Shown here: one piece after another, positions 2,731 to 36,294 of the stretch
Layout: each line of letters starts with the position of its first letter
Numbering within the stretch: position 1 is the first letter of the stretch
DNA from: Oxynema aestuarii AP17
GTDB lineage: Bacteria; Cyanobacteriota; Cyanobacteriia; Cyanobacteriales; Laspinemataceae
NCBI RefSeq assembly: GCF_012295525.1
Contig: NZ_CP051167.1
Location: 4,385,501 to 4,449,500 of the forward strand
Direction of reading: 5' to 3'
Length of the DNA: 64,000 nucleotides
Position numbers and translations under genes: made by a program
Notes under the pieces: generated by a model
Told to the model about the DNA's origin: nothing
The model's database searches: none
The model's input: only the letters and a program-made list of their open reading frames with translations

Positions 2731-2759
2731 GTAAAGACATGGCAATGCCGTGTCTTTAC
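2731..2759. repeat. 29-bp palindromic intergenic repeat (family member 1)
   Basis: The arms GTAAAGACATGGCA and TGCCGTGTCTTTAC pair with one mismatch around a central base. The same design recurs at 36266-36294 with a perfect palindrome. As RNA it would be a long hairpin. It lies between msrA and the ccbP remnant. Confidence 0.8.
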
Positions 2760-2816
2760 GGGGAATTGGCGACTCGATCCAGTCGATCTCAGATTTAACA
2801 GATTTAGGAGTGCTAT

Positions 2817-3204
2817 ATGATTAGCCCCGAGAAAGAAGCTGAAATTCAACAACGCATCGACGATGAAATTATCGTTGACGCATACAACGATGAAGAAGTC
2901 ATGATGTCGTGGTATTGCTACTTGCAAGATAACATCTCTTTTCCTTTTGAGGCCGAGTGGACGAGTAGCCGCAGCTCGTCTGCCAACAAGAGAACACAAC
3001 GGAAAGTCCAAGTTGTGGATATATCTTCAGAGGAACAATGCGAAAGAGGAACAATGCGAACGGGAGATCTTCGTCGAAATTGAAATCAAAGGAGGAAAGA
3101 TCGAGGATCGAATTAGCGTTCCGTTAATCAATATCAAACCGATCGATGCAGACGAACGTTCCCGACAAGCGATCGGCGATTGGCATTATTGGTGGGAGCA
3201 GTAA
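2817..3204 (+). pseudogene. ccbP: CcbP-type calcium-binding protein gene, frameshifted by a 16-bp tandem duplication
   Basis: The first frame starts MISPEKEAEIQQRIDDEI and reads DAYNDEEVMMSWYCYLQDN, then VVDISSEEQCE. The rest, EREIFVEIEIKGGKIEDR through DWHYWWEQ, lies in the +1 frame. At the switch, AGAGGAACAATGCGAA is present twice in tandem (3029-3044 and 3045-3060). Removing one copy restores a continuous 123-residue protein of the usual CcbP length. Known of the family: CcbP is a small acidic cyanobacterial Ca2+-binding protein linked to calcium control in Anabaena. Inferred: recently inactivated, or reversible by slippage between the repeats. A sequencing error is possible but unlikely for a 16-base insertion. 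Confidence 0.8.
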
Positions 3205-4590: not shown

Positions 4591-4643
4591 GGATTTTAGA
4601 GTTTAGATTTTAGAGTTATAGAGTTTATAGTTTATAGTTATTA

Positions 4644-4807: not shown

Positions 4808-4837
4808 TGTAGAGGTGATTCGCGAATCACCTCTACA
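4808..4837. repeat. perfect 30-bp palindrome (hairpin repeat family)
   Basis: Both 15-base arms are TGTAGAGGTGATTCG read on opposite strands. The same architecture, an outer GTAG...CTAC clamp with a CG-rich centre, is seen at 31769-31796. That points to a dispersed family rather than a simple terminator. Confidence 0.85.
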
Positions 4838-36265: not shown

Positions 36266-36294
36266 GTAAGGACACGGCAGTGCCGTGTCCTTAC
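36266..36294. repeat. 29-bp palindromic intergenic repeat (family member 2)
   Basis: A perfect palindrome with arms GTAAGGACACGGCA and TGCCGTGTCCTTAC around one base. It is the same family as 2731-2759. Confidence 0.85.

Follow-up and report, generated by a model that had tools for sequence, protein, structure and literature searches.

In the 64-kb window (the whole stretch of DNA that was analysed, positions 4,385,501-4,449,500 of the one-contig 6,357,750-bp Oxynema genome), ccbP contained a perfect 2 x 16-bp tandem repeat, AGAGGAACAATGCGAA twice, at 3029-3060. The gene had no second copy elsewhere in the genome. From the ATG at 2817 the frame ran for 88 aa, the last ~12 of them out of frame, before reaching a TGA at 3081-3083, and the displaced 3' frame ended at a stop at 3202-3204 (Table 1). 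Upon removal of 16 bp, the two fragment matches to PF11535 gave way to a single match of 125.8 bits covering profile positions 1-104 of 105, and this whole-profile match places the one-copy frame in the CcbP family; the one-copy frame and both actual fragments scored above the gathering cut-off of 21.5 bits. There were no further stops in the 369 bp of the one-copy frame, and its GC content by codon position (0.51/0.34/0.51) was coding-like. The first-pass annotation had reported a 16-bp tandem duplication that shifts the frame of a ccbP gene. The repeat lay exactly where it had been placed, and both the gene identity and the frame effect were borne out by the profile matches.

Table 1. Features of the ccbP locus, in window coordinates
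Feature	Position	Strand	Basis
REP-like palindrome GTAAAGACATGGCAATGCCGTGTCTTTAC upstream of ccbP (context, outside the lesion)	2731..2759	.	four genome sites, <=2 mismatches
AGGAG, Shine-Dalgarno-like, before the ccbP start	2806..2810	+	sequence
ccbP 5' open frame in its present form	2817..3083	+	PF11535, 80.3 bits, profile 1-66
Tandem copy 1, AGAGGAACAATGCGAA	3029..3044	+	sequence
Tandem copy 2, AGAGGAACAATGCGAA	3045..3060	+	sequence
ccbP 3' part in displaced frame, without C-terminal G-Y-x-F-type tail	3061..3204	+	PF11535, 45.4 bits, profile 58-104

The surroundings of the gene had few counterparts elsewhere. The neighbouring msrA gene found no match at E <= 1e-40 in 13 other genomes of the family, the WD40 neighbour had relatives at 46-48% only, and the ccbP regions of six other genomes shared no neighbouring gene with the Oxynema locus. 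One scan each of genome contigs and viral contigs returned no near-identical copy of the locus. Neither sigma-70-like promoters at ccbP nor, within the window's first 10 kb, any RNA families were found. The 29-bp palindrome upstream of the gene, of the GTAARGACAYGGCANTGCCGTGTCYTTAC type and REP-like or MITE-like, recurred in the window at 36266-36294, and a perfect intergenic palindrome, TGTAGAGGTGATTCGCGAATCACCTCTACA, followed the WD40 gene at 4808-4837.

Small tandem duplications across the genome

No perfect tandem duplication in the window other than the ccbP repeat had a period of 16 or more, and resampling the same 64 kb 200 times with a third-order Markov model yielded none with a period of 16-60. 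In a base-rate sample of 2.06 Mb (one third of the genome), we counted 122 perfect tandem duplications with a period of at least 12, and in 101 of these the period was divisible by three. Only the ccbP duplication split an otherwise complete gene. The other duplications whose removal lengthens a frame either flanked a gene or lay in non-coding or already decayed sequence, with gene context judged by eye. Small tandem duplications are therefore a normal mutation in the Oxynema genome and frame-breaking ones within genes are rare, as selection would produce. A 13-bp perfect tandem duplication at L105:7818-7843 (genome 287818-287843) was located in a decayed-looking gene fragment that presumably resembles a YoeB-type toxin-antitoxin gene. 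A degenerate tandem repeat of the TTTAGAG type occupied 4595-4641 of the window, between genes, and similar TAGATTTTAGA-type repeats occurred elsewhere in the genome.

Divergence of the one-copy protein and age of the duplication

We compared the one-copy protein with 67 relatives at the 41 positions that were at least 80% conserved. It kept 30 of these (73%), the fourth lowest value among 68 proteins, while intact copies from the same order kept at least 90%, save for L010, whose genome is 61% complete. The end branch of the one-copy protein in the tree measured 0.8 changes per column against a median of 0.084, and only that of L010 was longer; the two long branches met, so the placement of the one-copy protein is unsure. 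A C-terminal tail of the G-Y-x-F type (VxRGYxF and similar, after W-x-Y-W) was present in 62 of 65 relatives, being usual in the CcbP family though outside any formal definition of it. In Oxynema this tail was missing, and the stop followed WHYWWEQ, three residues past WHYW. Taken together, the missing tail, the 73% of conserved positions and the second-longest end branch indicate that ccbP was diverging at an unusually fast pace, whether ahead of the duplication or alongside it. This fast divergence may reflect an altered function instead of weak constraint. The earlier description of both halves as otherwise well conserved thus stands as far as the lack of any other stop is concerned, but not for the residues, since conserved positions and the C-terminal tail had been lost.

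A branch of 0.8 changes per column would be expected to bring many stops under neutrality, and the one-copy frame had none. Because the gene diverged fast yet acquired no other stop, it appears to have diverged while it was kept open, with the duplication coming late. At 10% neutral substitution, the chance that ccbP would show neither a stop nor a frame-breaking indel is ~1%, a bound calculated with indels assumed to occur at 0.1 per substitution, and the chance that the two 16-bp copies would stay identical is ~3%. The proposal that the event was recent agrees with these estimates: relative to neutral decay, the duplication is probably young.

Absence and breakage of ccbP among relatives

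The distribution of ccbP was patchy. A match was found in 88 of 389 genomes of the order and, within the same family, in three of the eight sampled genomes of one genus (g4). Several of the matches were broken. One was full-length, with a lone TAG inside its frame and, apart from this, 80% identity to an intact relative (G188, L225:602-973), two were interrupted by internal stops (G091 and G231) and one by a frameshift (G150); some of the genomes with a broken ccbP are incomplete or draft assemblies, in which single stops may be errors. A further six matches were short and truncated-looking (G063, G244, G018, G163, G026 and the second copy in G302). In G236, the gene carried a 268-bp MITE-like insertion (L219:1407-1676) with roughly inverted C- and G-rich ends and a flanking repeat of 3-4 bp only. 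This insertion lay within about one codon of the Oxynema duplication site, a closeness that we treat as coincidence, as it is one case. None of the aligned intact relatives had an insertion at the duplication site, so a switching repeat is not conserved there, and no tandem duplication was seen as the lesion among the other broken ccbP genes of the order.

Interpretation and comparison with known systems

The locus combines a recognisable ccbP, a frame-breaking lesion and the lack of an intact copy elsewhere in the genome. We believe that it is very probably a recently formed pseudogene of the genome's only CcbP-family gene, produced by a small tandem duplication, and not a switch. A 16-bp segment would have acquired an adjacent second copy while DNA was being replicated or a break was being repaired. 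The net shift of one base brings a stop ~7 codons past the second copy, so that translation from the normal start gives 88 aa and the protein loses its final third and a little more. We infer that this truncated product is nonfunctional. The gene was already diverging fast and has no C-terminal tail, and since fast divergence and a missing tail point to a loss that was probably tolerated, the selective cost is likely to have been small. CcbP is also missing from the majority of relatives and independently broken in several. The ends of the duplication showed no microhomology (C before, where the unit ends in A; C after, where the unit starts with A). It could have originated by template misalignment or by fill-in and joining of a staggered break, and the data favour neither.

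The main alternative to a recent pseudogene is an assembly or polishing error, the true genome having one copy and an intact ccbP frame. An open one-copy frame from end to end with coding-like base composition is what such an error, or a mixed culture, would also present. Perfect non-triplet tandem duplications were few in the 2.06 Mb and mostly outside genes, which argues against a general tendency of the assembly to such errors, and the departures of ccbP from its family in conserved residues and tail are not attributable to one. We therefore regard an error as unlikely.

The first-pass annotation had also raised the idea of a phase switch, in which slippage gains or drops a 16-bp copy often enough to toggle CcbP in subpopulations. 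Perfect tandem copies can revert precisely, and loss of one copy by slippage, restoring the ccbP frame, is possible in principle. Two copies are out of frame and one is in frame; in the one genome at hand, no second allele was seen. Switching would be slowed by the several chromosome copies that many cyanobacteria have. Spontaneous tandem duplications in the pneumococcal capsule genes cap3A, cap8E and tts were reported to give phase variation (Waite et al. 2001, 2003, as cited in PMC4022640). However, the ccbP repeat has only two copies of a short unit and no array, and that same source estimates the reversion of insertions no longer than 9 bp at ~1e-5 or less (PMC4022640). The missing tail, the reduced set of conserved positions and the long end branch are further signs of weak constraint, and relatives lack ccbP or break it by unrelated lesions. 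Different inactivating changes in sister strains had been named as an outcome that would refute the idea; the unrelated lesions and absences in related genomes resemble that outcome on a broader scale. The switch idea consequently found no support. We consider frequent switching very unlikely, and slightly less probable still the specific proposal that reversible slippage of the 16 bp toggles a cytosolic calcium buffer in filaments of a non-heterocystous cyanobacterium, although such a switch, if true, would be of consequence for cyanobacterial calcium signalling. Chance reversion of a 16-bp duplication is no evidence of an evolved switch.

Rescue of the frame, by a ribosome or RNA polymerase slipping one base in the repeat so that part of the product is full-length and carries 5 additional residues, is highly improbable: the two frames do overlap across the repeat and the shift needed is +1, but the repeat contains no slippery run, its longest homopolymer being AAA, and folding as DNA gave no strong structure (z = -0.47). 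We give equally little credence to the idea that a mobile element was excised and its target-site duplication stayed behind as a footprint, since, for all that the duplication ends lack microhomology and G236 has an insertion at nearly the same codon, that insertion is flanked by a much shorter repeat, no element remnant lies between the 16-bp copies, and 16 bp is unusually long for a target duplication.

Read as a recently formed pseudogene, the locus would clearly illustrate, on a small scale, how a single-copy gene is lost through tandem duplication; its family is one that cyanobacteria lose repeatedly. It also calls for caution, as annotation may present such a gene as a pair of short proteins or as a pseudogene. 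To our knowledge, Oxynema forms no heterocysts, and no NtcA-type sites were found near ccbP, so that loss of CcbP without large cost is plausible.

The pneumococcal capsule duplications and the one in ccbP are alike in being short tandem duplications that lie in an open frame, inactivate the gene and could in principle be reversed precisely. They differ in that phase variation was reported in culture for the capsule genes, whereas ccbP is represented by one genome snapshot with no phenotype and with other signs of weak constraint. The other broken ccbP genes (nonsense in G188 and G091, frameshift in G150, MITE-like insertion in G236) share with Oxynema the independent inactivation of the same family, by lesions that differ from its tandem duplication. 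The best relative of the one-copy protein with a solved structure was Alr1010, the CcbP of Anabaena (PDB 2k2v, 2p0p, 3urg), a calcium-binding protein that is described, where PMC7065334 deals with it, as being lowered by NtcA and HetR in heterocyst formation. The one-copy protein is homologous to this CcbP of Anabaena sp. PCC 7120 (PF11535) over residues 2-121, while in the Oxynema gene the frame is broken, the C-terminal tail is missing and several conserved residues are replaced.
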